Below, in pieces: positions 29,295-63,190 of a DNA stretch of 64,000 bases (the stretch's first letter is position 1; each line of letters begins with the position of its first letter). Made by a program: the position numbers and the translations under genes. The DNA is taken from contig JAHRHY010000003.1 of the NCBI GenBank assembly GCA_019671135.1, forward strand, positions 2,852,001 through 2,916,000, in the 5' to 3' direction. Origin of the DNA: Linnemannia hyalina (taxonomy: Eukaryota; Mortierellomycota; Mortierellomycetes; Mortierellales; Mortierellaceae). Below the pieces are notes generated by a model that was not told the origin of the DNA, ran no database searches, and was given only the letters and a program-made list of their open reading frames with translations.

Positions 29295-30351
29295 AGGACC
29301 AACAGTCTCATTCTTCAACCCAGTAGAACCCGTCTAAAAGGCAGTCGACGAACTGACAGCCAAGGGCATCATTGCCGTCTCACATCACTGATATGGAACC
29401 GACATTGAAGCTGCCACCAAGACGCGTGGGCTAGACTTGATTGTTGGTGGACATTTGCTCACTTACTTCGGTGACCCCAAGGATGCGATATACCAAGGCC
29501 CTTATCCCACGTTGATCAAGAATCTTGATGGGGAGGGGACACATATTGTTCAGGTACCCTATTTTTTGTCCGTGTTTCATTGATGCGATGGTTCATTGTA
29601 TCTTTTGGTTTGCGGTATCTAATCTATGTAGTCTGCGATGATGATACGTGGATAGGCATACTGCTGGGGAAGGTTCATCGGGAACCTCGACATCTCATTC
29701 AACCCCGAGGGCAAAAATCGTTTCCTACGCCGGCGGGCCTGTCCACGTCGACCATTCCCTCCCCGGCGACCCCCCGCCCTTCTCCAAAAAGTCGACGGCT
29801 GGCGTTCAGAATTCGAAGCCTGGTCCTGGATATGTTGGAGGGGAGTTGTCGTGGGCATGAACGCTGAGACCGGTAAGGCCGTCAGCACATTCATTCAAGC
29901 CTCTGGCCTCCGCTTTTCCTACGACTCCACAAAACCCGCGAACGGTGCCTCGAGTCAAATCATCAAAGCCGAGATCCAAGACCGCACCAAGAATTGGCGC
30001 CGGATCGTCCCTGGGCAAACCTACTCCGTCGTCACCATGGACTTTGTGATGACCGGTGGGGACAACATCCTCGTCAAGGAACCCCGTACCCGAAGCTATC
30101 GCCCTCAAAAGAATGAACGAGATCCTGATTTCGTATGTCGAGACGGGAAAGTGTATTACGCCACGCCCTATGTGGATGGGAGGATTAGCGATGTGGAACC
30201 GGGGATGGAGAGAGATTATAATGAGATGATGGCGATGGATTTGAAGAGTTATTTGGGTAATAGGGAGGGGTGTACGCCTGGATATTTGAGGAGGCAGTTT
30301 CCTGAAGGTCCTGAGCAGATGAATCGTGCCTATTCGCACCTGCGTAGATGA
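29295..30351 (+). pseudogene. 5'-nucleotidase (metallophosphatase family) relic
   Basis: Residual reading matches the UshA/CD73 family: FNPVEPV, KAVDELTAKGI, TRGLDLIVGGH, YQGPYPTLIKNLDGE, then after an intron-like gap AYCWGRFIGNLDI and PVHVDHSLPGD, and finally a C-terminal part with VVTMDFVMTGGDN (frame open 29851-30351). It is broken by in-frame stops at 29335-29337 (TAA) and 29389-29391 (TGA), by a one-base slip in an A-run near 29712, and by another near 29792. The N-terminal metal-binding half is missing, and GGHSHT reads GGHLLT. A block between the catalytic and C-terminal domains is also deleted. This is a dead copy. Confidence 0.8.
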
Positions 30352-46293: not shown

Positions 46294-47562
46294 TTAAAGG
46301 GCGGCGGCAATCTCGGCGGCAAGGACTTCGTCGGTGGGAACAGCAACTGCGACCTTGACCTCCTTCTCTTCGTGCGATACCTCGATATGGTGAGAGACGA
46401 CCTCAGAGAACAAGACACCCTCCTTCATCAACTCCAAATCCTCGGTCTGAGTCAACACAGCCTCGTCTTTGACCTCCATCACAATCTCTTCATCCTCCTT
46501 GCGGGTGCCAGCCTCCTCAATGTGAGAGACGACATCGGCAAACGAAACACCCTCCTTCATCTTTTCCAGATCCTCAGTAGGCGCCAAGATCTCAGGTTCA
46601 GGGACATTGTGCTTGGCGATATCGGCAAACGAAACACCCTCCTTCATCTTTTCCAGATCCTCCGTTGGGGCCAAGATCTGGGGCTCGGGGATGTTATGTC
46701 TGGCCATGTCTGCAAACGAAACATTCTCCTGGACCAATGCTGCGACTGCAGGTGCAACGTGTCCGTTGGCCTTCTTCTCCTGTTCCTGCTTTTCCTGCTT
46801 GAGTTTGTCCTCAGCCGCTTTGACAGCGGCAAGGGCAGCCTTCTCCTTGGCCACGGCCTCAGCCTCAGCAGCCTTCTTCTCATAAATCTCAACAGCGGCC
46901 AACCGATCCTTAAAGCTCCCCGCCAACTTATCCATCTGGCCCATCAACTTTTGAATCCTCGCAATATCGCTCCTTTTCCTCTTCCTCAACTTCTCAAACG
47001 CCACCACCTCTGGGCCATTCGCCAACGGCAGCCCTCCAAACCCATCCCCCAAATCCATCAACTCCCTAGGCGAAATCGCATCCAACCCCTCCAACAACCT
47101 CAACAGCCTCTCATTGATCGACTGGACCAAAAAATCCAGCTTCTTATACCCCTGCCGAACCATTGCCGGATCCTTCGCAAATCCAAGCTCGTTACTCCGT
47201 TCCCGGATCAATTCCTCCTGCGTCTCCTCAACGTCCTCCCCAAACGTCTTCTTATCCTCCTCATTAATCAGTCCCAACGCCGGCAAGCGAACATGTGGAT
47301 CCGCAGGGTAAATAGGATGTTGACGGAGAGTCTTTGTGCGGACTTGAGCGAGACGCACATCCTCGTCCAGGAGTGTCTGGAGGGCAGATTCGACCTTGGC
47401 GAGCGAGGACGAGAGTTGCTTTTGGGTGGTTTTGACGAGACGGAGATGCTTTGTGCGACGGTCGTCTTGGATGAGTAGGTAGGCAACGGCGCCGATGGTT
47501 GTGAGGCCGACGATTGCTGAGCCTGCGATGATCAGGTTCTGGCGGGTTGATGCAGCGACCAT
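46294..47562 (-). CDS. N-terminally membrane-anchored BAG-domain-like protein with C-terminal repeats
   Basis: Intronless gene for 422 residues. A single transmembrane helix lies at about 10-31 (NLIIAGSAIVGLTTIGAVAYLLI). Helical sequence follows, with a BAG-like pair of helices: KLDFLVQSINERLLRLLEGLD and RKRSDIARIQKLMGQMDKLA. This arrangement matches Snl1-type proteins, ER or nuclear-envelope anchored Hsp70 nucleotide-exchange cofactors; that identity is inference. An A/E/K-rich coiled coil follows. The end has imperfect repeats of about 29 residues built on VSFAD...HN.PEP.ILAPTEDLEKMKEG: two near-identical copies and two diverged ones. The function of the repeats is unknown. Confidence 0.65.
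   Translation of the reverse strand: MVAASTRQNLIIAGSAIVGLTTIGAVAYLLIQDDRRTKHLRLVKTTQKQLSSSLAKVESALQTLLDEDVRLAQVRTKTLRQHPIYPADPHVRLPALGLINEEDKKTFGEDVEETQEELIRERSNELGFAKDPAMVRQGYKKLDFLVQSINERLLRLLEGLDAISPRELMDLGDGFGGLPLANGPEVVAFEKLRKRKRSDIARIQKLMGQMDKLAGSFKDRLAAVEIYEKKAAEAEAVAKEKAALAAVKAAEDKLKQEKQEQEKKANGHVAPAVAALVQENVSFADMARHNIPEPQILAPTEDLEKMKEGVSFADIAKHNVPEPEILAPTEDLEKMKEGVSFADVVSHIEEAGTRKEDEEIVMEVKDEAVLTQTEDLELMKEGVLFSEVVSHHIEVSHEEKEVKVAVAVPTDEVLAAEIAAAL
46513..46722. repeat. tandem repeats of about 87 bp inside the BAG-like gene
   Basis: Two near-identical direct copies and part of a third carry the sequence CAAACGAAACACCCTCC on the plus strand. They encode the VSFAD...EDLEKMKEG repeats and stay in frame. 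Confidence 0.8.
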
Positions 47563-48636
47563 TTTTGCGGGGTGTGGTTGGGTTGGTCGTGTGGATCGAA
47601 GGGGTGTGCGAGTGTGTGAGTGAGAAAAGGGGGGGGAAAGAAAAAGAAAAGAAGTGAAAGAAGGAAAAGAAAAGAAAAGAAGGGAAGAAGAGGGGTGTTC
47701 CTTGTTGTCCGTGTGTGAGTGTGACAGAGAGAGAGGGAGAGAGAGAGTGAGAGAAAAGGCAGGAAGGAGACCGTTGTGGGATCCCTTGTCAAAAGTATGA
47801 CGTCGGGAAGGGAAAATAAACCACCCCATGGGCCACAAGGCACTCTCAGTCCTCCCTCAGTCCTCCCCGGCTTGACTTGTTTTGGGAGTGTCGCGCGACG
47901 GAGATAAACACATCCCTTCCCGCGGCTTGGAGGTGTCTCACACTACTCGTCAGGCACACATCCACACAACTCGCAACAAAACCCGCCCATGGTCCTCCTC
48001 ATGCGGTCCTCCTATCCACTTTGCACTCCACACATTGAATCAAAGAGCATACATCATTGCTCACTCTCTCTTGCTCTGTTGTGTTGATTTTCTTCTCACG
48101 CGAGGGCCACCCTCTTCTCCGTCTCTGTCCCACAAATACAGTACAGTCCATTAAGGGGCCAAGTTCATCATCTACCATTGGGCTCATTGTGCCTGCCGCT
48201 CCTACCTTGTCTTCTTTGTTCTGCTCTTCCTCTATTTCCAGGCCAATCACCCGCAACAAATCACCCATGGAGCCATACAATCTGGTAACTACAATACGGT
48301 CCCCACGTTCTTCTTGAGTGAGAGGCATCACCTGGACAAAAAACTAATCGCGACCTTTTCTTGGATCATTCAGACCGACAACATCGTGCTACTCCAGGAC
48401 CAGGACTGGGTTCAAAGAGCCCCACGTCTGGCTCCGGACGAACGCCTTGCCACACAGCTCGAGATCGCCTTCACTCGAATGGAAAAGCACGACTTCAACG
48501 GACACGTTACCACGACAAAAAACCGACTCCTCGACTGTGACTTGGCCGTCCAGATCCTTTCCGACCCAGCGGCAACAACACAGCGTTTGGAAGCTGAAAC
48601 GCCACCAACAGCACTAGCTCTTACATCGCACAAACA
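47563..48636. other. upstream region of the BAG-like and Fanzor genes
   Basis: Divergent upstream region. The left end is the C/T-rich (on the minus strand) leader of the BAG-like gene. On the plus strand an open frame at 48314-48655 with normal-looking codon use but no in-frame ATG near its start overlaps the Fanzor start and may be an extra 5' exon. No terminal inverted repeats of a transposon were found by eye. Confidence 0.4.
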
Positions 48637-51600
48637 ATGCTCAACGTGGGAATAACGACGAAAAAGCGACCCGATCACTCATTCACCCTCAGCATCGCCA
48701 ACCAGACAGTATCCCAACACGCCAACCATCGACCTACTCCCGACCCACCACCAGCAATCATGCGGCTAGATCACCGTGGTTCAATCTTTTTCCAGTTTCT
48801 GTCGGACCATTACCAAGCACATGTTTACGAGTTCAGCAGCCTCGGGAAGGCTAAGAAGTACAGTCCTCGAAGCTGTTCCCAGACCACCAAGTCGATTGGT
48901 TTCCTTAAGGCGGCGGACCATGTTCAGACAAATATCGAGTATCTTGTTCTTGGCACCGCCATCCACGCCACCCCTCGCCCGCAGCCCCCTGAACGAGCCT
49001 CGCTGACCGCCTTTACGGATATGGAGCATCCAACACCAGCTACCTATCGCGAGCACCACCGTCCCCACGGTGGGAAAGGAAAAAAGCGAGATGCTGAGTG
49101 GGGAGATTTGCAGAAAGCCGTGCTGGTTAGTGCCTATGAGGACCATTGGTAAGTGGACATTATAGGCTTATGGCGTTGTATGATAGTCAATCTCATTGAT
49201 CAAAGGCGGTAGCATGTGATTTCTTTTTTAATCATTTTTTTTATTTTGCCTTTTGTTACAGCAAGGACTTCATCAACGCAGAGATCGAAAAGCGAGCCAG
49301 TGTTCTGCAGAAGATCAAGACAAAGACCAACAGCGACACACAAGCACTCAAGGATAAGGAGCTGGCCGACCTCACAACGAGCTGGCTAGAGAGGACCAAG
49401 AGCCCTATCAATTTCAAGGACTTTGTAGCTGCTGCCAGAACAGACTTTCGGAGCCCACACCTGACGGAGGATATGGTGAGAAAAAAGATTGGGAAGGGTC
49501 TCATTGATGTTTGGAGGCAAGTCGTCAAAGACCACCTCCAGCCTGGATGGGGGCAGGTTATGGAAAACGTCATTGTCGGATCCCAGTATGTTGCCGACAG
49601 GGGTGGACGAACGCGCTTGGCGGCAGTCTCGCATCTGCCATCCAGCTCGGGACCATCGTCCGGATCGACAAGCAGCTTGCAGAAGAGAATTGGACAGTCT
49701 GGAACAGGAGCTGATGCTGGCTATATGGACGTGGACGAGGAGCAGGATAACGATGACGACGAGGAGGACCAAGACAGCGACGACAACGAGGACGGCTCGC
49801 ACCAGTACCGATCTATCACAGTCACCCTCAACCAAGTACTCCGGCCCGACCTTAAGCAAGAACTCCAACATGTTATTGACGCCCTGGATTCTCGACAGGA
49901 CACGATGACTGACCTGATGTCAGATGCTGCAGTTCTGGGGCAGAAGATTGTCCTCTTGGTAAGTAATTCTCTTCTTTTAAAAAGCGTTACTGTTTATTAG
50001 AAACGTCCCCAAATATTACTGAAATTTGTTACTAACAAGGCCTTTGTTGTTCTATGTGAATTGCAATAGGCTGCAAGGCAATTCGGTGTGGGCAACGCGG
50101 AAGAGTTCCCCTTGGGAGACCTTCTACCTGATGGTTTCCGGCCCCGAGTTTCAGATGTCACACTTTCAACTCATCGAGTCCCGATCGCACCTCTTGACGC
50201 AGATATTGTACGATGGATCGAGGAGCAGGAGGACCAGTCCAAGAAGGCAAAGGACCTTCGCAACATTTTATCAGCAGAGGCCTTTCGGTTCTTCATCGCC
50301 AGGAATTTGGGTGTCAAATCTGGCCAGCAGGACGAAAACAACAACGACAAGGACAACATATCTATGGAGCATCCATTTTGGCAGGACGTGTCGGACCATG
50401 TGCGAGAGCTATCGACAAGGCGCCCCTCTCTCCCCCCAAAAGACCACCCACTCCATGGCCTCATGCAGACCATCAACGCCTTTACCAGAGATCTTTCTCA
50501 GGATTTTCAACAACTACTCAATGGTAACATTTTCGACAAAGTCTTCAACACGTTCACCAACAAAATTCTTCGCCTTCACCTTACACCAATCAAAGAGCAA
50601 CTTGCATGGGAGAAAGGGGATTCGAAAGGAAGTTTGGTGACTGATGAAGGAGACAAAACGAACAGTCTGACGAGGAAAGAATGGTGGAGACGCTGCCGGA
50701 AACTGCAGGGCGATCTCGATGACTGTCTTTGGCGAACAGACTCGAAGGAACGGGAGACTCGACTGGCTGTCTTGACGCAGGCTATTCGGCAGATGATCAC
50801 TAGCGAACCTACTCTGACGCAAGGCAACCGCCTAAAACCCCTCGATGAAGAATTTTCAAAGTCTATCAAGCCATCCACCACTGCGGCTTTGGAAGCAGAA
50901 TTGGAGGATATTTTGATCGCAGGAATCGCTGCAGACGAAGCCAACGATTGGCTTGCTAAAGAATATCTTCAGCATGAGGAAGGTACGTTCGTAACGATGC
51001 AAATTACACACTTGTCAACGCTATCACTTTCCTCAAACAAATGCCTTGAATAAAAGAGATGCAACGATGAGGGTGACTGACCAGCGTTTTGATCATTTCG
51101 ATTTTTAGACCGCCTAACCGCATTGCTAGACAAGGATTGTCATGTTTCATCCAAGGCAAAGCGAATGAGTAAGTGAGGAGCTATGTGATGTATGGCTGTT
51201 CAAGGCGTTACGTTGGTGATGTGATCTGACATATCTTCTTTATATATATAATAGACGCCGAGACTCCTGCAGATCGGATTACGGGCCTTCACGCCGTTAT
51301 GAAGATGTTGCTCCAGTCCCCCTCGCTCGAGAGACCAGTAGACGCGTGCTATGTACAACGAGTGTGCAAAGGGATCAAGCCTACAACCGCCGAGTGCACC
51401 ACCGTCGCGACCTTAGTTAATCTTCTCAGGCCGTTTGTTCCCAAACGTCGGCTGCCACGCTCGTCGAAAGACATGAAGACCGAGGAGAGAGTCGGGGGCT
51501 ATACATACAAGGCGGAGGCGCACATGGCATTGAGGGCACCGTTCCTAGTCTTGGCAAACGAGTTCTTCCGTGTTGCTGGCTATCCAGGGTCAATGCGAAA

Positions 51601-54131
51601 GTTGACTCCACAAATCTCTCCATCGTCTCGACATGCCCTGTCACTCACGCGGTCCTCGCTCTCTGAGATCCTATACAGCAGCAAAGGAAACCAGTTTGAC
51701 TACTACGACAACAACCACAATATCGTCAGGACTCGACCAACTATTCAACAGAGAGCCAGACTGTTTTTCTCCTTGTTTAACCGACACGCCGTTGAGCGCC
51801 TCTGCAGCCAGTATCAGATGGAGTTCGCCTTTAGGTAACCCTTGGTCAAACACTCTTGTTATCTTTTGCTCGTGATGAACCGCTGGTTAGTATTAGTTTT
51901 TAACCCTTTCTCCGTCATTTTACTGGATATTAGAATGATTTACATTGACAACCTGAGAATACGAATCATTGGCAGATCCATCGGTCATGGCCAACAAGGT
52001 CGTGTAGGCTACCCGATCGTCAGCTCGTTTGATACTAGCCGCAAGGCCAAGAAGAAGAAGAGGTCTCCTGCCTCTATCGACTGGGTCCAAGAGGTTCGAT
52101 ACATGGACGCAGATACTGAGCTGGCGGAGGAAGAGTTTGCAAAGGCCGAGTTGAACCTGGAGGAGGCGGAGTCGACATTGAAGGTACTGCGGTCTGAGCT
52201 AGAGCCATTGCGGGAAGCAAAAGCCAAATCCGCGCGGGACAAAAAGCGACTTGCTCGCCGCCGTCGACAGGGAGACAAATCCGAAGGCCTTTTGGAACAG
52301 ATGACAGCGGCACGCCATGACTTTCGTAGCAAGCAGGATCTCTATCAGTCCAAACTAAAACCGACTCTGCTGGCGGAAGAGGAAGTCAAGACTCTTCGAA
52401 GATATCGGTACTATTGGATGCGTCTACAACACTTCACCAAGGACACCAAACCGGATCCAGAACCTGAACCGGACACGTCGAGCGAGTCTCTCAAGACTTG
52501 TCGAGATCCATCGTGGGATAGGCCTGAACTCGAGGATTACGCCGAGCATATCAAGCTTACTCATCTGAAGCCACGAGACTCACGAACGATAACGCTCGGT
52601 AGTTTTGATCCGGGTATTGCCAAGATGTTACAAGGATCCAGAATGTCTCTACGCGACGTTGCTGCACGACTTAACATCTATCAATTGCTCCAAAGTAACA
52701 GACTATTTGGTAGCATTGCTTGCGATCGAACAACATGATTTATTAAGTTCATTCGACCATGGTCACTAATATTTCACAACATCCCATTCAAACATAGACG
52801 AGGACGTGGACACGAACGGCAAAGACGCTGAGATGCTTGGTCATCATGACGGTCAAGACGTCAACAAAGCGGATTGCGGCGACAGCTACAGCCACAGCCA
52901 CAGCCATAACAGCAACGCCACCGAGGACCAAGATGAGGATGCCGACATTTTCATTCCCCACCACTCGTCTACCGTCCAAGTCCCAGAGCCACCACCCGCC
53001 GCCACGGTTCCTCCTGCGATCACCACAACGGCGAACCAAATCAACCACTTGTCCTATATGAACAAGGCCGCAAGGAGACGAAACAGAAGATTAACACCAG
53101 AGTGGAAATCAGCGCACCAGGTCTCGAACAACTCCATCACACACCTTCTTTCGATTCCCGAACTCGACAAGATCCAGAGCGAACGAATGTCGACAAGATC
53201 GGTTCTACGCAACTTTGAGAGGAACAAGACGACTGTGAAGGACCGTCGAACTCGGGAAATATTGACCAAGAGGACTTATGCAGGGTTGGCGGCGAATCAG
53301 CGGCGTTTCTTCCAAGATGTTGGTAAGGATAACGTCTCCCTTTGATGTATGATTATGAGAATCAAGAAAGAAAACATTAATGCTGGCTTGTTCATTTCAT
53401 AATGGACACTAGACGCTACCGCAACGACCACAATCACAAACACGCCATCTCATGGAGAACTTAGCATCACACCCAACACCGAACCACTCATCATTGATGG
53501 ATACTGCCATGTGCCAGACTGCCAGCAGTACCACACGTCGTCTCACCCTTTTGGCAATTACCATCCGACCAATATCTGCCTCCTCGAGAATCCCAAGCCG
53601 CTCCCCGTTATTCTATATGGTGCAGCAGGGTCAGGAGTTGGTTCCACTATTAAGGGTCATGCTCGCAGGGTTGGCGGCAGGTTCCGTAGGGAACACAGAC
53701 AGCATTGTGTTGTTGCTGTTACGAATGAGAACTTGACCTCAAAGTTGTGTTGTGTCTGCTTCCAGTTTGTGAAATTGGCCACAGCCCGGCGCCTCATCAA
53801 TGGCGCCATACGTTCGGTCAGGATTAATGGATCCGTGATTTGCCAGAATCCAGCTTGTCCTTTAACCCACAACGGTACTGCCACACAGAATCGGGACAAG
53901 AATGCCGCGGCCTGTATCGCTTTGTCAGGATTCACAACTCTACTTGCCGACGACCACAATCCGCTGCCTCCGTTCCGTCTCCGCACTCGCCCTCCTCGTC
54001 CATCTCTCCAAGAAAACTCCCCAACCAATATTTTCTCCAACAGCACCAGTGTTACATCTGGATTGTTCATTACCTCCAATGTCACGGCGTGGATCCGTGC
54101 CACATTGGATCTGTCCATGAGGGCAGAGTAG
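48637..54131 (+). CDS. Fanzor: eukaryotic TnpB-like RNA-guided nuclease with giant N-terminal extension
   Basis: Predicted 1,588-residue protein. Eight exons join in frame without a stop: 48637-49148, 49262-49958, 50070-50982, 51109-51168, 51255-51834, 51934-52694, 52798-53322, 53413-54131. The C-terminal third matches Fanzor/TnpB: RuvC-I GSFDPGIAKM (Asp1146), a basic linker rich in R and K, ILYGAAGSGVGSTIKGHARR, RuvC-II TNENLTSKLC (Glu1455), a zinc ribbon with CCVC and CQNPAC, and RuvC-III QNRDKNAAACIAL (Asp1511). All three catalytic acids are present. The segment before RuvC-I (FNRHAVERLCSQYQMEFAF, then MIYIDNLRIRII) resembles the region preceding RuvC in Fanzor proteins. The first 1,100 residues, with an acidic tract near 325-350, are unassigned. 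Known Fanzors cut DNA guided by an RNA encoded at the 3' end. The gene converges on valyl-tRNA synthetase with a gap of 125 bp. Confidence 0.88.
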
Positions 54132-54256
54132 AAGGTATATTATTTGTTTGGCCAGATGTCCTTTAAACGTTGTCATGTTGGTTGCTTTTATAGAGGTTGG
54201 CATTCACTAACTCTATTGTTTTTGTTACTCTAAAAATATATAACCCCACGACTTCT
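54132..54256 (+). other. candidate Fanzor guide-RNA (omega RNA) 3' region
   Basis: This is all the DNA between the stop codons of the Fanzor and valyl-tRNA synthetase genes. It contains an imperfect hairpin at 54190-54216: ATAGAGGTT pairs with AACTCTAT around a ten-base loop, one G bulged. In known Fanzor and TnpB loci the guide scaffold overlaps or follows the 3' end of the gene, so this is where it would be expected. Nothing else supports it yet; it could be ordinary 3' UTR. Confidence 0.25.
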
Positions 54257-57200
54257 TCAGACTCTACCAAGGGTCCGGATAGTCGTCAACAAATGCTCCT
54301 CCTGCGCTAACAAATCCACCTTCCGCTTCCCATCCAGCTGCCTCACATTCTCAGGAACCCTCTCCGAATACTCGGGCCGTCCCAACCTCACGCCCAACTT
54401 CTCCAGCTCGGCTTGCACATTGCCCAGTTTCTTGTTCAGGCGCTTCAATTCCTGTTCCTGCTTCTTTGCCGCACCCTCTCCACCCGCACTTGCAGCTGCT
54501 TTCTCGGCGGCCTTGGCGGCATCGGCAGCGGCCGCTTCAGCAATAGCGTCCTTGATGGCCGAAAGCGGGGTGAGGAGCTTCAATTCGGGGCTGATGATAT
54601 GCACAGCCATCACGGTGGGGTCCACCACCAAGTCGTTGGAGGTGGATGAGGCAAGTTTGATATCACCGGTGGAGCGCGTGAAATGCGACAGGGAGGATTG
54701 GCTTTCGAGGAGAGCTCCTCCAGGTGCTAGGAGGGAGATGTCATTGGTCCAGATGGTGAAAGGGAGCTCCTTGGACATGGGCACCTGATGGCTTTGACGC
54801 AGTGACCGTGATGCCTGAATCACTCCCAGCGCCACCTACAGGTTATCCAAGAACCAAAAAAAAAAAAAAAAAGCAAAGGCGAGTTAGTGACATTTGCCAT
54901 CTCGGGCCTGAAAATACAGCACTGGAGTAATCGGCTGTTTTATGTACCTCCATGTCCTTCTCGGCTGCTTCATCTTTCCAGGACTCGAGTTCTGAGGGCG
55001 ACGGGAAGGAGGAAACCATGATTGACGTGGATCCAGCTGCGGACTCTGGCAGCATTCTTTGCCACAGTTCCTACATCCACGATAGAGAAAGAAAAGGCGT
55101 TAATCAATGTGCACAATATAAAAAAAGACTAAATATTAATTCAATACACAGAAAAGTGACTCATACCTCGGTAACGAAGGGCATGAAGGGGTGCATCATA
55201 CGCAACGACGCGTCAAAGCACGTCTGCAGGATCTTTAACACGCTATCCCGTTGCTGGATCGACTTGTGGTCCTCAGACACCAGGACAGGTTTGATGAACT
55301 CGACATAGACATCACACAGGTCCTGGATAATAAACTTGCGCACGGTATCCGTCGCAACCGACGGTTCAAGCTGGTCCATCCCGCCGTTGACCTTGTTCAC
55401 CGTGTCAGCAAGACGCGACATGATGAACCTCTCGACCAGCGAGAGTTGTTGCTGTTGACCACTGGCAGAGACTGATTTCCTGAATTCGGTCAACCCTTGG
55501 GCAAGGACGGTCTCAGAAGTGACCGACGATACATAGTTGAGGTCGCCCAAACGGGTCCGGTAGAACGCCGACAGGTTCCAAAGTTTGTTGGCGAAATGCT
55601 GGGCCGAGGTAACGTTCGCCAAGTCCAAGTTGATCTGACGCGACTGTTGAGTCGATGACACCAACGCGAACCGAAGTGCGTCTGCTCCACTGGCCTGGAT
55701 ACCTCTCGGGAAATCCTTCTCCATCTGAGTCTGCGACCGTTTGACCTCCTTGGCAGCCAAGTTCCCGCCCTCCAGAGTCGCCTTCAAACCCTTGAGCGTG
55801 ATACCTTCAATGACATGAGTTGGGTCAATGACATTCCCGACAGATTTGCTCATTTTCCTTCCTTGAGCATCTCGAACCATAGCATGGAACAAAATATCCT
55901 TGAACGGTACCTCGCCCGACAAGTGCGTACACAGCATCACCATCCTGGCAACCCAAAAGAACATGATATCTGTCCCCGTCTCGATCAAGTTGGTCGGGTA
56001 TCTCAAGGGCGTCATCTTTTCAAGGGGGTATCCAGTCCAGCCCAAAGCCGAGAGGGGCAATAGTCCTGAAGAGAACCAAGTGTCGAGCACATCAGCATCC
56101 TGGACAATTTTGTAGGGTGTATCCTTGAGCCCTTTGTCGGCGAGAAACTTTTGAATCTGTCGAGTGGCCTCCTTTTCAGAGTCGGCTACGAACCAGGGGC
56201 CGTCCCCTGTGTCAGTTGGGAAGTGGGTTTGGAGGATGCTGTGGTGTTCGAAAACAGGCTTGTAGGCTGGGATCCGATGGCCCCACCACAGCTGTCTCGA
56301 GATGCACCAATCCTGGATGTTCTCTACACATTTTTAGTGATGCGAGATAAAATAGCTAATGTTAGTATACGATGGTCGCGATGGTCAGCTGTCAAGTTTT
56401 AAAGATGTGAAGCAAAACATACGGACGTACCCAACCAACGGTTCCAGTCCTTGATAGAAGATTCAGGGTGAAAAACCAGGTTCCCGTTCTCGGCATCCTT
56501 CAGCGCCCGCTGGGCCATCCCATCGCACTTAATATACCTATCGGAACCAAGAAAAATGTGAAAGGCATTAATATGTAAACGCACAAAACTTTTTCTCTTA
56601 ATCCTTCAAAGTCCGTACGCGTACACTTACCACTGGGGCATGACCATGGGCTCAATGACATCTCCAGATCGTGAGCAACGCGCCAACCGCATAGCATGTT
56701 TTTCGTTCTTGCCCCTGTATACTCCAAGTTCCTTGAGCTCTTCAACAATTTTGTCCCTTGCATCGAATCTGTTCATTTTCTATGTCGCATCAAGAAGCAG
56801 AGGGAAAGTTGTTAATACAGGCGACAAATAGTTGGTAAGCGCGATATGCAAAGGTTACGCTTGGCGTTGACTGGGTAGTACCTCGTATGATTTTGATCCG
56901 CAGTTCGAGTTGAAGGTTCCGTCCTTGTCCAAGATATTGACAATAGGAAGTCCGTGTCTCCGCCCGCATGCATAGTCATTTGGATCATGTGCTGGTGTGA
57001 CCTATTCAGGTTAGCCCACGGTGGAATAAATTAGCACGTTTAGTATCAGTACATGATCTAGTTCCTTGTCTATCATAGGAGAAACGTTCCATGATTCGCT
57101 CCATGATTGCCTGTACCTTAACGACGCCGGTTCCGAATTCCATTTCGACGAGTTCGGGATCACAGATAATAGGAAGTCGTTTGCCCGAGATAGGGTGGAT

Positions 57201-58436
57201 TACATGTCGACCGTGAAGATGCTTGTAACGAGGGTCTTCTGGGTGGATCGCCACAGCCTCGTCTCCGAGCATGGTCTCGATACGTGTTGTTGATACGACC
57301 AGTTCCTGTGATCCATCGCCATCCACCTTGTACGCAAAGTCGTGCAGCACTCCGAACTCCACCCTAAACAAACACCACGGATAAGGTAATGGTCGATTGT
57401 TAATGCAACAGCACCCAGAGCCAAAAGAAGGGGTGCGGATCAGACGAGGGAGACTTACTTTTTCAGGCGGCCGGGGACGTTCAACATTGTCCGTCCTTCG
57501 ATATCCTCGTGGTCGACTTCAATGTCCGAGATAACAGTCTCCAAGGCACAGCACCAATTGACAAGTCGCGTGTCTCTATACACAAGCCCATCCTCAAACA
57601 ACCGAATAAATGCCCCCTTGACAGCTTTGGTCCTGTCCTCATCCAATGTAAAGAAGCTCTCCTCCCAATCCATCGACGCGCCCAAACGCCGAAACTGTCT
57701 CGTAATCCGATCCCCATGGAGTTCCTTCCAATCCCAGATCTCCTTGATAAACGCCTCCCGTCCAAGATCGTGCCGTGTCAGTTTCTGCTCCCGCATCAGC
57801 TTCTTCTCAACAACGGTTTGAGTACTGATACCAGCGTGATCCATTCCGGGGACCCAGGATACACTCTCCCCGCGCATGCGACGCCACCGAACGATTGAGT
57901 CCTGGATCGAGGCTGTGAGGGCGTGGCCGATGTGGAGGTAGCCGGTGACGTTGGGTGGAGGTAGCAGCATTGTGAAATGCGCTGGAGAATCGGGTTTTCC
58001 TGCTCCAGTGTCAGTTGTTGATCCTGATCCTGACGTCACTTTTGAGCCGAAGTAGCCTAGATAGAGAATGGAAATGGAGATTTAGAATGTGCTTTTCTGG
58101 TTCCTGAAAGTACCGTGCCTGAACGACAGAAGTCTTGTACCTTGTGATTCCCACCACTCGTACCAGCCTGATTCTACGATAGACTAGAAGGCGAGAATTA
58201 GCTGAGGCTGCTGTTGCCACTAGGTTTTGCCATAAAGAAGAAACTACCGACCGTTCGATTTTTCTTACGGGATCATATTTGTCAATGGTCCGCTTGGGTT
58301 TAGGGATACTTGTCCTTGTAGCAGTAGTTGAGGCGAGTGACCGGCTGTAGGACGAGAATGCGGTCCTGGCAGAGACGGTTCCTGGTGTGAATTGTCTCCG
58401 CGGGTGAAGGTGTAGTTTTCCTAATGATCGCCACAT
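54257..58436 (-). CDS. VAS1: Valyl-tRNA synthetase
   Basis: Class Ia aminoacyl-tRNA synthetase, 1,096 residues, close to yeast Vas1 (1,104). Ten minus-strand exons join in frame: 58269-58436, 58141-58183, 57459-58056, 57117-57363, 56882-57001, 56631-56779, 56431-56537, 55167-56323, 54948-55070, 54257-54835. The HIGH motif is at residues 112-115 ([12 protein letters not shown]) and KMSKS at 634-638. [16 protein letters not shown] and [13 protein letters not shown] are further family signatures. The C-terminal coiled-coil arm of ValRS is present ([14 protein letters not shown]). Residues 1-40 are Arg/Ser/Thr-rich without acids, like a mitochondrial presequence. Either the gene serves mitochondria only or an internal start makes a cytosolic form. 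Confidence 0.95.
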
Positions 58437-58673
58437 AGTTGCGAGTCGAGAGTGTTTGCCATGAGAAGAGAGAAGGTGCCCATTGCTCGCGGTTCACGGA
58501 GCACAGTTTCCCTCGAACCTTGCCCAATCCGCGCGACTGCTTTCTGCCAAATGTTTACTCTTTCCCAGTCACTCAGTCCAATAATTGCACTTTGTTTTCT
58601 CGTCGAAGCAATTGAGCCTTCTCTACCACACCCTCCTCCTTCACCCAACCTCCCTACCTCTGCATTCCTCGCC
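58437..58673. promoter_or_regulatory. bidirectional promoter of ValRS and Tpa1 genes
   Basis: The two start codons face away from each other across 237 bp, so promoter elements must be shared or interleaved. The right part is the C/T-rich leader of the Tpa1 gene. Confidence 0.6.
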
Positions 58674-60328
58674 ATGGCAAAACACGAGTTGGCCCAACAC
58701 AACAGCGTACCCCTGAAGCGCTCCAAACTCAGTCTCCAAGAACCACCAACCATTGAGCCGCCGGTCTTCAATCCCCGCTACAGCAACCCAGCCTTCTCCA
58801 ACCCCTTCAATACCGCCTTTCGCGACCGCCTCGTCTTCAAAGACGACCAGAGCGACGCCTGTCTCTTCAATACCCCATACCCAGCTGCCAGTCTCCCCAA
58901 CTTCCTCGAATCGACCGACTATCTCCAAAAACTGCGCGAGGAACTCTTGACAGAGGCATACTTCCACAAGTCGAACGACCTCTACGAGTTTTACCAGTCT
59001 GAAGATCTGCGTCTCTCCAAGAAGCCCCATATTGCCGCCTTCAAGAATGCAATCTACTCCCAAAAGTTCTTTTCTTTGATGTCTTCGCTGACGGGGATTG
59101 ATCTGGATCCCTCAATCATTGACCTGAACGGTAACCAGTACCATGAGGGATGCTATCTGCTCTGCCACGATGACGATATCAAGAACGAGAAGGAGGGTCG
59201 TCGGATCGCTTTTATCCTTTACCTTGTTGATGACGACTGGAGTGCTGCTGACGGAGGTGCCCTCGATCTTTTCAGATGGTAAGCGCATTTTTGTTTAACT
59301 GACAACAACAGTTTTTTCCCCAATTGATCCACTATGCTAACATTGCCTGGGTTTCAATCGTATATTTTCTTAGTGATGAAACGGGATACCCGATTGAGGT
59401 GACACAGTCGCTGGTCCCTGCCAGGAACACACTGGCATTCTTCGAACTCTCTTCAGTTTCATACCACCAAGTCGCCGAAGTCCTGACCCGGGACAAGAGT
59501 CGAATTTCCATCTCGGGCTGGTTCCACGGACCCCTGCAGACAAAACTGATCTCCAAAACCATGCCCTTCACACCCCTGGAATCATCCGCACAGGACATCT
59601 CTCTAGAATCGCTGTTGAACCCAGACTACTTGAGCGAGTCGGCCATGGCCAACATTGGAAACGTCTTTCTGGAACAGAGCTCGATTGAACTCCAACAGTT
59701 CCTCCGCCCAGAGATCTATGAGCAATTGGTTCAGGAGCTGGAAGCCATGGGATCTGTGGAAGGGGCAGCAACCGAAAAGGCGCTGTGGGATGTTGTGATG
59801 GGGCCACAACATGTTCGTCGGTACAGTCAAGTCTCTCAACGGAATCAGGATCAGATCCCTACAACGCTCTCGCGACTCCAACGGCTTTTCAAATCCAAGG
59901 TGTTTGAGGCCTATCTCTTCAAAGTGACGAATCTGACCTTCTTGTCGGCGAACACGGAACTGAGGATGTTCAAGAAGGGAGACTATACCCTGTTGCACGA
60001 TCATGCCCTGGAGAGGAACGGACTGGATGTTGTGTTTAGTTTCCCGCATTTGGGGGAGGGCAAGGAGGAGTGGGAGGAGAGTTGGAATGCTGGATCAACT
60101 CATTATGTTGCGGATAAGGCGAACTTATTGACGTTGTACCCAAGGCACAATACGTTGACGATGGTGTTGAGGGATGAGGGCACGTTGAGATTTGTGAGGT
60201 ATTTGAATGCGCGGGTTGGAGAGTCTAGGCGACGCGAGCTGAGTGCTATGTATACCGTGAACGAGGACGATGAAGACGAGGAGGAAGACGAAGAAGGCGA
60301 GGAGGAGGCCAACGGAGATGAGAACTAA
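58674..60328 (+). CDS. TPA1: Prolyl 3,4-dihydroxylase, Tpa1/Ofd1/OGFOD1 family
   Basis: Fe(II)- and 2-oxoglutarate-dependent oxygenase that hydroxylates ribosomal protein uS12 and affects translation termination, 519 residues. Exons 58674-59278 and 59374-60328 join in frame. The catalytic N-terminal domain has the iron ligands His165 and Asp167 (CHDDDI) and His233 (SYHQVAEV), and the 2-oxoglutarate-binding Arg245 (RISISGWFHG). YLQKLREELL and DLYEFYQSEDL are family motifs. The second, non-catalytic double-stranded helix domain follows, ending in an acidic tail of D and E. The start is the ATG giving MAKHELAQHN; the upstream sequence is leader. It shares a promoter with valyl-tRNA synthetase. 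Confidence 0.95.
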
Positions 60329-61141: not shown

Positions 61142-63190
61142 ATGACACGGGGCGAGGAGGAGGATGAAAAAGTACTCGGACCTGCAAAGGATTCGGCAGA
61201 AGAGCGTCGTCGAGCAACATTAGAGATTAAGAAGCAATACCTTCATTTCAAGAACCCTGATCTGTCAGACGCCACGTTGACGTGTTATGCTCCGCCGTTA
61301 GTTGACTAGGATGTAAGTGCTGGACCTCAAAGGTCCACTGGGGGGGAGGGGAGGTGGCAAAGAAGCAGCTATATTGTTTAACGCTTTTTCTTCTTCTTTT
61401 GTTTTGTCGCTGAAAACACAAATAGGCATTCTGTGTGAAGCATTATGGAAGCAATGTAGATGTGGAACCAAACAAAGTTTGCGACTTCTTTCGACGGCGT
61501 GTGTTCACACGGAGCAAAGCACTTACAATTAATCTCGCGTATGGCTACAGTGGCAATATTGGGCGGTTGGAGACGGATCCCGCAGATGAGCGTGAGGATG
61601 CAAAGGTTAGAGTTGTTTGCTGAACGCAAAGCTACACTTAAACAGACTCGACTTGTGATATACATGCGAGACAATTAATTGACATTTTGTTTATTTGTTC
61701 GTGGGTGTAGCCATACAGACGTGCCGGGATAAGGGCGAGAAGACGTGTCACTTCGTGGCGCCTCTCGGATATGAAGGGGTCGAAGCGTATTTGAAGTCTC
61801 TAGTTGTCGAATGGGGGTTTCAGGCAGCCGCCAAGAAGCACACCTTCCCCAAACCGCGTCATTCGGCAATCGTCATGGACGAGCTTGCATTGTGCAGTCG
61901 CACACTGGTGTAAGGCAAGACTATAGACTTTTCACCTGCCAGCCAGGACCGTGTCGGTGCGCCGCCAGAAGAAGGTGGCGATGCTATTAGTAGTGGTAGT
62001 GGAAGCCTCGCAGTCGAGGGTCAACTGTCTACGATGATGCTACAGTTTTGGAAGGGCGAGTATCTGAACTCTATCAATCGTAAGTCATATATCTGGGATC
62101 GGCTTGAGGTCAGTCTGCGACACCATATGCTGTTGAGGGGCGGAATTTGAACTTGACTGATTGCCATGTCCAGATTGTGCTCGCGCACCCATTCGATGCT
62201 ATGACTGCTGCAGGAACAGGACACTAACATTGTCAGGACCGCGTTGTGAGGGGCTTGGAGCTGTCGCTGACTCCGCACAGAACTCGACGTAGGGCGAATG
62301 GGGTGGCAGAGTACCCGATGGCGTTGCGGCATAGGGATGTTGTGCGGTGTCCTATTGGCGCTCTTGCGTTCTGCCTCTTTGAGCGTTTCGATGTATGCTT
62401 ATCTCATTATGTTGGTGGGCTTGTAGTATGCCATCAATGGCTGGAAGTTGGTGCTAACCCTGCTCATTATGGCGTGCGTTTAGATCATGGATGAGCCAGT
62501 CCCAGATTTCAACAACGCGACCGAATGGCCCAACATCAAGATCCTCAAAGCCAAGAACAAACTCAAACCGATCGTTCCCTTAACCCAAAAGCGATCCCTC
62601 CAGGACGTCTTCCGCCAATGGAGAATCAACCCACGCCTCTCCTCCTAACGAGGCCGACTTTCTGGCCTCCAAGAATTGAAAAAGATGGACCTTAGCATAT
62701 TACGCCCTCGGCAACAACGGCTTCGTGGAATATCGGCGGAGGTGGGACAGGAGCAGAGTGATCGGCATTTGAAGATGAAGAAGGACCATTATATCTCCAA
62801 GGAGGATACGTTGAGCTTGTTTGGTATGGCGGGTTTTCCGGATGCAAGGTATTGTCTGTTGAGGGCTCGAGTCGCCCCGGGGTTGGAGCTGCAGAGGTTG
62901 GTGTTCCCATGGATTGAAGGGCAGTTCCAGGATACGGATACGGAGGATTGGGAACATGAGTGTAATAGGGTCATGATGCAGGACATTCTTCTGGCAGACG
63001 CGTCGATCAGCACAGTCGCTCAATCTGAACATTCGGTGCAAGCAACCAGCGTCCGGAAGGGTACAACATCCACCACCGCAACACCTCTGAACCAGGAATC
63101 CTCGAACCACCTGGCGAATCACCTTCCAAGCCCTCATCGACGCCAACGCCCAAGCAGGCGTCACCAGGGCGCTAAGCAGAGCAGGAAATA
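61142..63190 (+). mobile_element. Crypton-type tyrosine-recombinase relic
   Basis: A broken transposon gene. Exon 1 (61142-61312) starts MTRGEEEDEK, reads TLTCYAPPLVD and meets an in-frame TAG at 61307-61309 just before a GTAAGT donor. Exon 2 (61426-61605) reads FCVKHYGSNVDVEPNKV. Later pieces, in shifting frames, read GYEGVEAYLKSLVVEW, then MALRHRDVVRCPIGALAFCLF, VPDFNNATEWPNIKILK, and finally HYISKEDTLSLFGMAGFP with LQRLVFPWIEGQF. This order matches fungal Cryptons and the related Ndc10/GCR1-like DNA-binding proteins. The R-H-R part of the recombinase core is not recoverable; a Tyr remains in DHYISK. Stops and frameshifts mean it is inactive. Confidence 0.7.

Follow-up and report, generated by a model that had tools for sequence, protein, structure and literature searches.

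A 64-kb stretch of the genome of the soil fungus Linnemannia hyalina (positions 2852001-2916000 of contig 23; henceforth referred to as 'the window') contains what is, judging from its sequence, a real, unusually large and divergent gene of the Fanzor1 type of eukaryotic RNA-guided nuclease, and one of mobile origin. Probably, this transposon gene, a giant of the Fanzor1 type, is present here as a solitary copy in a module of about 6 kb, which was long constrained and is now frameshifted, unless the assembly is in error. An earlier note, made from the letters of the window alone, had described the gene as apparently intact, still under selection and, given its dense introns, perhaps long resident or domesticated. 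The genome searched for the present analysis comprises 51.5 Mb in 50 contigs.

The window gene is homologous to Fanzor1

Splicing the eight open segments of the earlier gene model at their seven GT-AG introns gave, as had been claimed, 1588 codons without a stop, and the three RuvC motifs and the zinc ribbon lie where they had been placed. The RuvC-I aspartate (FDPG) is at 52607 (D1146; motif positions are the first bases of codons), the RuvC-II glutamate (ENLTSK) at 53727 (E1455), the zinc-ribbon cysteines (CxxC and CxxxxC) at 53748, 53757, 53841 and 53856, and the RuvC-III aspartate (NRDKNAA) at 53895 (D1511); the catalytic acids D, E and D are all present and in order. TSKLC is followed by a C4 zinc finger and, 11 residues past the last cysteine, by RD, which fits the Fanzor1 pattern [TS][TS]xx-C4-RD (5-50 residues). 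A three-sequence profile aligned with the C-termini of seven Fanzors of the same genome at 95.5% probability (hhalign; 35% identity over 60 columns). When a profile of 12 family members was searched against the PDB, SpuFz1 of Spizellomyces punctatus (8gkh) came first of the four matches at E<=1 (E 0.0025), the others being two Cas12f sequences (E 0.037 each) and PpFz1 of Parasitella parasitica (9cf0; E 0.14). PF07282 was matched at E<=1 by nine of the 12 members, the best at E 3.3e-4.

In the corresponding 12-row alignment, made of ten loci of this genome (the window among them) and two proteins from elsewhere, with identities to the first row of 27-55%, the catalytic glutamate, TS, the cysteine pairs and RD are kept with few exceptions: L041 lacks the first cysteine, L043 lacks the last, and L045 ends before RD. 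The RuvC-I aspartate is present in the window gene, in a relic copy on contig 8, in the two mobile families described below, in L039, L040 and L041, and in protein P0003 of M. alpina, and it was not resolved in L042, L045 and L047. Overall, these comparisons demonstrate, at the level of sequence, homology to Fanzor1 across the RuvC-II, zinc-ribbon and RuvC-III stretch, and the assignment made in the earlier note holds. Relatives of the window domain were found in Mortierella sp. GBA39 (93% identity), L. elongata (83%, partial), Thamnidium elegans (27%) and M. alpina (27%).

The giant family is carried by transposable elements

A search of the genome with protein P0002 gave at least 33 matches, 25 of which, the window included, extend to the zinc-ribbon stretch. 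Ten kilobases were fetched around 20 of these 25 loci, plus the contig-8 relic, leaving out C16:74876, C8:767984 and C6:157357. Across about 8 kb, eight of the loci (L028-L035) are 98-100% alike. They have a common end base, and their right flanks all differ except for those of L030 and L031, which are the same. All eight bear a reverse open reading frame (ORF) that matches NDC10_II (E 9.1e-10 in L028) and that we take to be a Crypton recombinase. Three other loci (L036-L038) are about 98% alike and bear a DDE_Tnp_4 transposase (E 3.5e-24 in L036), a domain typical of PIF/Harbinger elements, together with a putative SANT-like partner ORF without a Pfam match. One of these Harbinger-linked units measures 8,683 bp, and in the two of three copies in which both ends were seen we found no terminal inverted repeat (TIR) and no consistent target site duplication (TSD). 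Neither a Crypton-like nor a Harbinger transposase was found in the other nine of the 20 fetched loci, other kinds not having been sought. The giant family is, to judge from these copies, carried by transposable elements, with two unrelated kinds of transposase adjoining its members, and has been recently mobile. Introns also interrupt the genes of the mobile relatives, and Fanzor1 genes with five and ten exons were described in transposons in 2013 (excerpts of PMC3627910); dense introns are thus no pointer to domestication, contrary to what had been suggested.

PF07282 has 91 matches in the genome, which do not include any of the 25 giant-family loci. Scores are repeated exactly in several sets of these matches, such as 36.2 bits at around a dozen positions, and this is suggestive of recent copying. 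At L041 (C44:1900700-1910600) a member of the giant family (C44:1902844) and a PF07282 Fanzor match (C44:1908071) are found on one strand, about 5 kb apart. In one Harbinger-linked copy, tandem repeats with a 20-nt unit (TATGCTGAGCACGAGGCCGC) occupy L038:1-127, within the SANT-like ORF.

The reading frame of the window gene is broken in the assembly

L036 has, ahead of an exon with a single reading frame, an ATG mini-exon (MDMTTL). When its N-terminus was compared with the window by tblastn, it matched 48395-48616 in frame 2 (43% identity), and L036 then matched 48622-49149 in frame 1 (37% identity). Since L036 has one frame throughout this exon and the mini-exon has a homologue in the window, the window gene has one extra upstream exon and one extra intron (48285-48373), its reading frame breaks between 48616 and 48622, and the ATG at 48637, previously taken for the start, codes for an internal methionine; the 18-nt first exon at 48267 had been overlooked. 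The gene thus extended comprises nine exons and about 1,681 codons, and the break divides about 87 N-terminal codons from the remainder. By codon usage, too, frame 2 is marked as coding ahead of the claimed start (roughly 48311-48570), which the alignment with L036 explains; with codon usage trained on neighbouring ORFs, the annotated frame ranked best of the three forward frames in seven of the eight earlier exons (all but the 60-nt exon 4) and best of all six frames in six (all but exons 4 and 8). The gene, which had been called apparently intact, is therefore not intact in the assembly.

We considered whether an intron could conceal the change of frame and rejected this, as nearby donors have no consensus and a donor at 48646 would cut out residues that align with L036. 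Within 48596-48640, no base is repeated more than three times in a row. The contig-8 copy does not have the stretch that contains the break and so cannot date it. The window copy has probably lost its full function recently; a product translated from the internal ATG would retain the RuvC and zinc-ribbon parts and have no N-terminus. A suspected likeness of the N-terminus to OTU proteases was dropped, as neither of the N-terminal ORFs scanned had a Pfam match.

The window gene was under purifying selection while its sister copy decayed

DNA queries from three parts of the unit had no matches besides the window itself and a single copy on contig 8. The left edge of the common unit is the start of the BLAST match, and beyond the right edge, 31 of the 47 sites aligned in 54242-54290 differ. 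The contig-8 copy matches the window at 48211-48414, 50723-51186, 51241-52798 and 53254-54189 with 78-82% identity and is a relic: it has two large deletions and 15 further coding indels (11 of them not multiples of three), and seven stops in 743 aligned codons.

The two copies differ at 114/792, 83/789 and 155/789 sites of the first, second and third codon positions, respectively, and at 136/662 non-coding sites (these unpolarised counts treat three intron bases as coding and, conversely, place the 18-nt first exon, like 19 bases outside the unit, with the non-coding sites). With L038 as outgroup, the polarised changes by codon position were 22/11/51 on the window branch and 54/51/41 on the contig-8 branch (Fisher p 1.6e-6), after 103 of the 333 differing sites had been left out as ambiguous (30, 15 and 58 by codon position). 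The amino acid was changed in 67 of 743 codons on the contig-8 branch and in 10 of 743 on the window branch, with 94 three-way. The outgroup alignment was queried with the window protein, which may bias it toward the window; any such bias is probably small, as the third-position counts (51 and 41) are nearly equal. The test leaves out 48415-50722, the part of the 5' gene that is absent from the relic. These counts indicate that the window gene was under purifying selection while its contig-8 sister, with changes spread flatly over the three codon positions, decayed, that is, since the two copies split. The claim that the gene is under selection thus stands for the past; the test neither separates host-level from element-level selection nor shows that selection persisted after the frame break.

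Structure of the locus and other features of the window

The coordinates of the unit, of the gene and of its neighbours are collected in Table 1. Within or adjoining the unit we found no Harbinger, SANT-like or Crypton gene. Searches of the window and L011 with the Harbinger and SANT-like proteins of L036 and the Crypton protein of L028 yielded a single match, a Crypton fragment at 62285-62416 (38.6% identity to the L028 recombinase, E 5e-5), in agreement with the Crypton relic of the earlier note. Elsewhere in the window, the C-terminal domain of 5'-nucleotidases (PF02872, E 3.4e-8) is present in an ORF at 29656-30351, which the earlier note had called a relic. Close to the valyl-tRNA synthetase gene, a 2-oxoglutarate oxygenase that carries an Ofd1 C-terminal domain is encoded at 58428-60328. 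Rfam had no matches in the window, and in a search for viral contigs seven stretches fitted a pattern, none of which was confirmed.

Table 1. Features of the giant Fanzor locus and its neighbours (window positions).
Feature	Position	Strand	Basis or remark
Upstream neighbour ORF	46294-47856	minus	no Pfam match
Unit common to window and contig-8 relic, 6,031 bp	48211..54241	+	edges are the end of similarity
First exon, 18 nt	48267..48284	+	same exon-intron layout in L036 (MDMTTL then TELLYISHDQEW)
Second exon, first part, frame 2	48374..48616	+	tblastn with L036 N-terminus; codon usage
Interval of reading-frame break	48617..48621	+	continuous L036 frame, matches switch from frame 2 to frame 1
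Second exon, second part, frame 1	48622..49148	+	tblastn to L036; GT donor at 49149; earlier exon-1 start 48637 lies inside
Exon (2 of earlier model)	49262..49958	+	splice sites, codon usage
Exon (3 of earlier model)	50070..50982	+	splice sites, codon usage
Exon (4 of earlier model), 60 nt	51109..51168	+	annotated frame not favoured by codon usage
Exon (5 of earlier model)	51255..51834	+	splice sites, codon usage
Exon (6 of earlier model), RuvC-I Asp codon 52607	51934..52694	+	end may be 52709 (intron 6 has two workable donors)
Exon (7 of earlier model)	52798..53322	+	GBA39 protein P0001 continues in frame across next join
Last exon: RuvC-II, zinc ribbon, RuvC-III, stop	53413..54131	+	
3' segment to inferred right end of unit	54132..54241	+	expected guide-RNA site, by likeness to Fanzors
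Downstream neighbour, valyl-tRNA synthetase	54257-54835 + 55161-56333	minus	

Discussion

Several observations weigh against the window gene being a frameshifted giant Fanzor1 of transposon origin. The spacing from the RuvC-I aspartate to TS is 311 residues, outside the published Fanzor1 motif D-X(125,275)-TS (excerpts of PMC3627910). The last exon alone scores only 10.4 bits against PF07282 (E 0.77), compared to a cut-off of 26.3, and alone matches no Fanzor in the PDB, and two AlphaFold2 models are too low in confidence to show a fold (mean predicted local distance difference test scores of 31.8 and 33.1). The window unit has no convincing TIR or TSD among the repeats listed (20 of at least 60 direct families and 25 of 44 inverted pairs). 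The right ends, which in the window, L036 and L028 lie 110, 130 and 131 bp beyond the stop codon, respectively, have no structure above chance (folding z -0.01, -0.27 and -0.17). Lastly, the break might be an assembly error, although it is outside any homopolymer. Given the Pfam score and the spacing, the profile search that had been proposed as a check would by itself miss the assignment and would not have filed the gene as a Fanzor. Most Fz1 proteins have 600-700 amino acids, according to excerpts of PMC11423790, and it is the profile homology and motifs, taken together with the spacing of 311 and a size above this range, that point to a giant, divergent Fanzor1 variant.

An unrelated zinc-ribbon protein with RuvC-like motifs by chance would be in keeping with the sub-threshold Pfam score of the exon and the low-confidence AlphaFold2 models, but we regard this as very improbable, as the glutamate, TS, cysteine pairs and RD are kept across the 12 rows with few exceptions, the RuvC-I aspartate is conserved wherever it was resolved, and SpuFz1 is the best match in the PDB, in addition to the hhalign probability of 95.5%. 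A working giant Fanzor retained by the host, in which the break is an assembly error or translation starts from the internal ATG, would account for the purifying selection on the window branch. It would also fit with the single close copy found with the three DNA queries, itself a relic, with the related proteins of Mortierella sp. GBA39 (93%) and L. elongata (83%, partial), and with the finding that the unit neither contains nor adjoins a Harbinger, SANT-like or Crypton gene. However, the family is mobile and the frame is broken between 48616 and 48622 in an assembly which, taken as that of SCG-10, was made with HGAP4 from more than 13.7 Gbp of PacBio Sequel reads (51,558,230 bp in 52 contigs; PMC8444964), and we consider such domestication unlikely.

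The recently mobile relatives in the same genome, the similar genes in other Mortierellaceae and a selection test that is blind to the difference between element-level and host-level selection would all be compatible with a late arrival, that is, with a copy that came under selection within a mobile element of another strain or species, inserted here a single time and is now in decay. The three DNA queries found no mobile close copy of the window subfamily in the genome, however, and no TSD was found; we give this scenario little credence. A solitary and long-constrained copy of a transposon gene, now frameshifted, remains our preferred reading. As a further and decidedly speculative suggestion, the giant Fanzor of the Mortierellomycetes might be a resident, transposase-free and host-selected 6-kb module, in which the extension of about 1,100 residues before RuvC-I would go with a host role, for example the policing of the same mobile family.

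The closest parallels come from Mucor circinelloides, as far as the excerpts of Bao and Jurka (2013, PMC3627910) describe its elements. The Fanzor regions of the MCi-2 family, 6 kb long, are nearly identical, and one subfamily (MCi-2A) contains a partial Crypton gene; in the MCi-5 family three elements carry a Harbinger-type transposase, so that both resemble the family reported here in having a Fanzor module of about 6 kb with variable 5' parts; MCi-5 also has no obvious TIR, like the Harbinger-linked family in L. hyalina. A Fanzor module with changing transposase parts is hence already known in kind. In contrast, the Mucor elements have TSDs (ATAATTNNNN(N); ATTTAT), whereas none was found here, and the window copy differs from them in having no visible transposase and a broken frame. 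Our literature search found nothing that joins Fanzor with Mortierell* or Mucoromycota, and for Crypton and Harbinger its best result was Bao and Jurka.

The window protein shares with SpuFz1 the E..TS motif, the two cysteine pairs with G..C-NP-x-C in the second half, and RD, although SpuFz1 has 633 amino acids (excerpts of PMC3627910) compared to about 1,681 codons here. PpFz1, a weaker match to the family profile, also has an insertion in RuvC, of about 100 amino acids (excerpts of PMC11423790), whereas the window protein exceeds the usual Fz1 length more than twofold. The PF07282 Fanzors of the same genome (e.g. L001-L008) share a zinc ribbon (NEYYTSKKC), the RD motifs and the profile-profile match, but their cysteine pairs are closer together than those of the giant family. 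For the window copy, the protein anatomy was read directly, and expression, a guide RNA and DNA cutting would be expected by analogy with other Fanzors. If the protein works as SpuFz1 and PpFz1 do (excerpts of PMC10432273 and PMC11423790), it would bind an RNA encoded at the element's right end and, guided by this RNA, cut matching DNA by its RuvC domain; such cutting may favour persistence of the element, which a separate transposase would move.

In conclusion, the claim of an intact, domesticated gene is corrected, and a large Fanzor1-like lineage is found to occupy at least 25 places in one fungal genome, below the cut-off of the Pfam profile. This suggests that counts of Fanzors based on such profiles are too low. 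The same genome allows Fanzor modules with and without a transposase to be compared.

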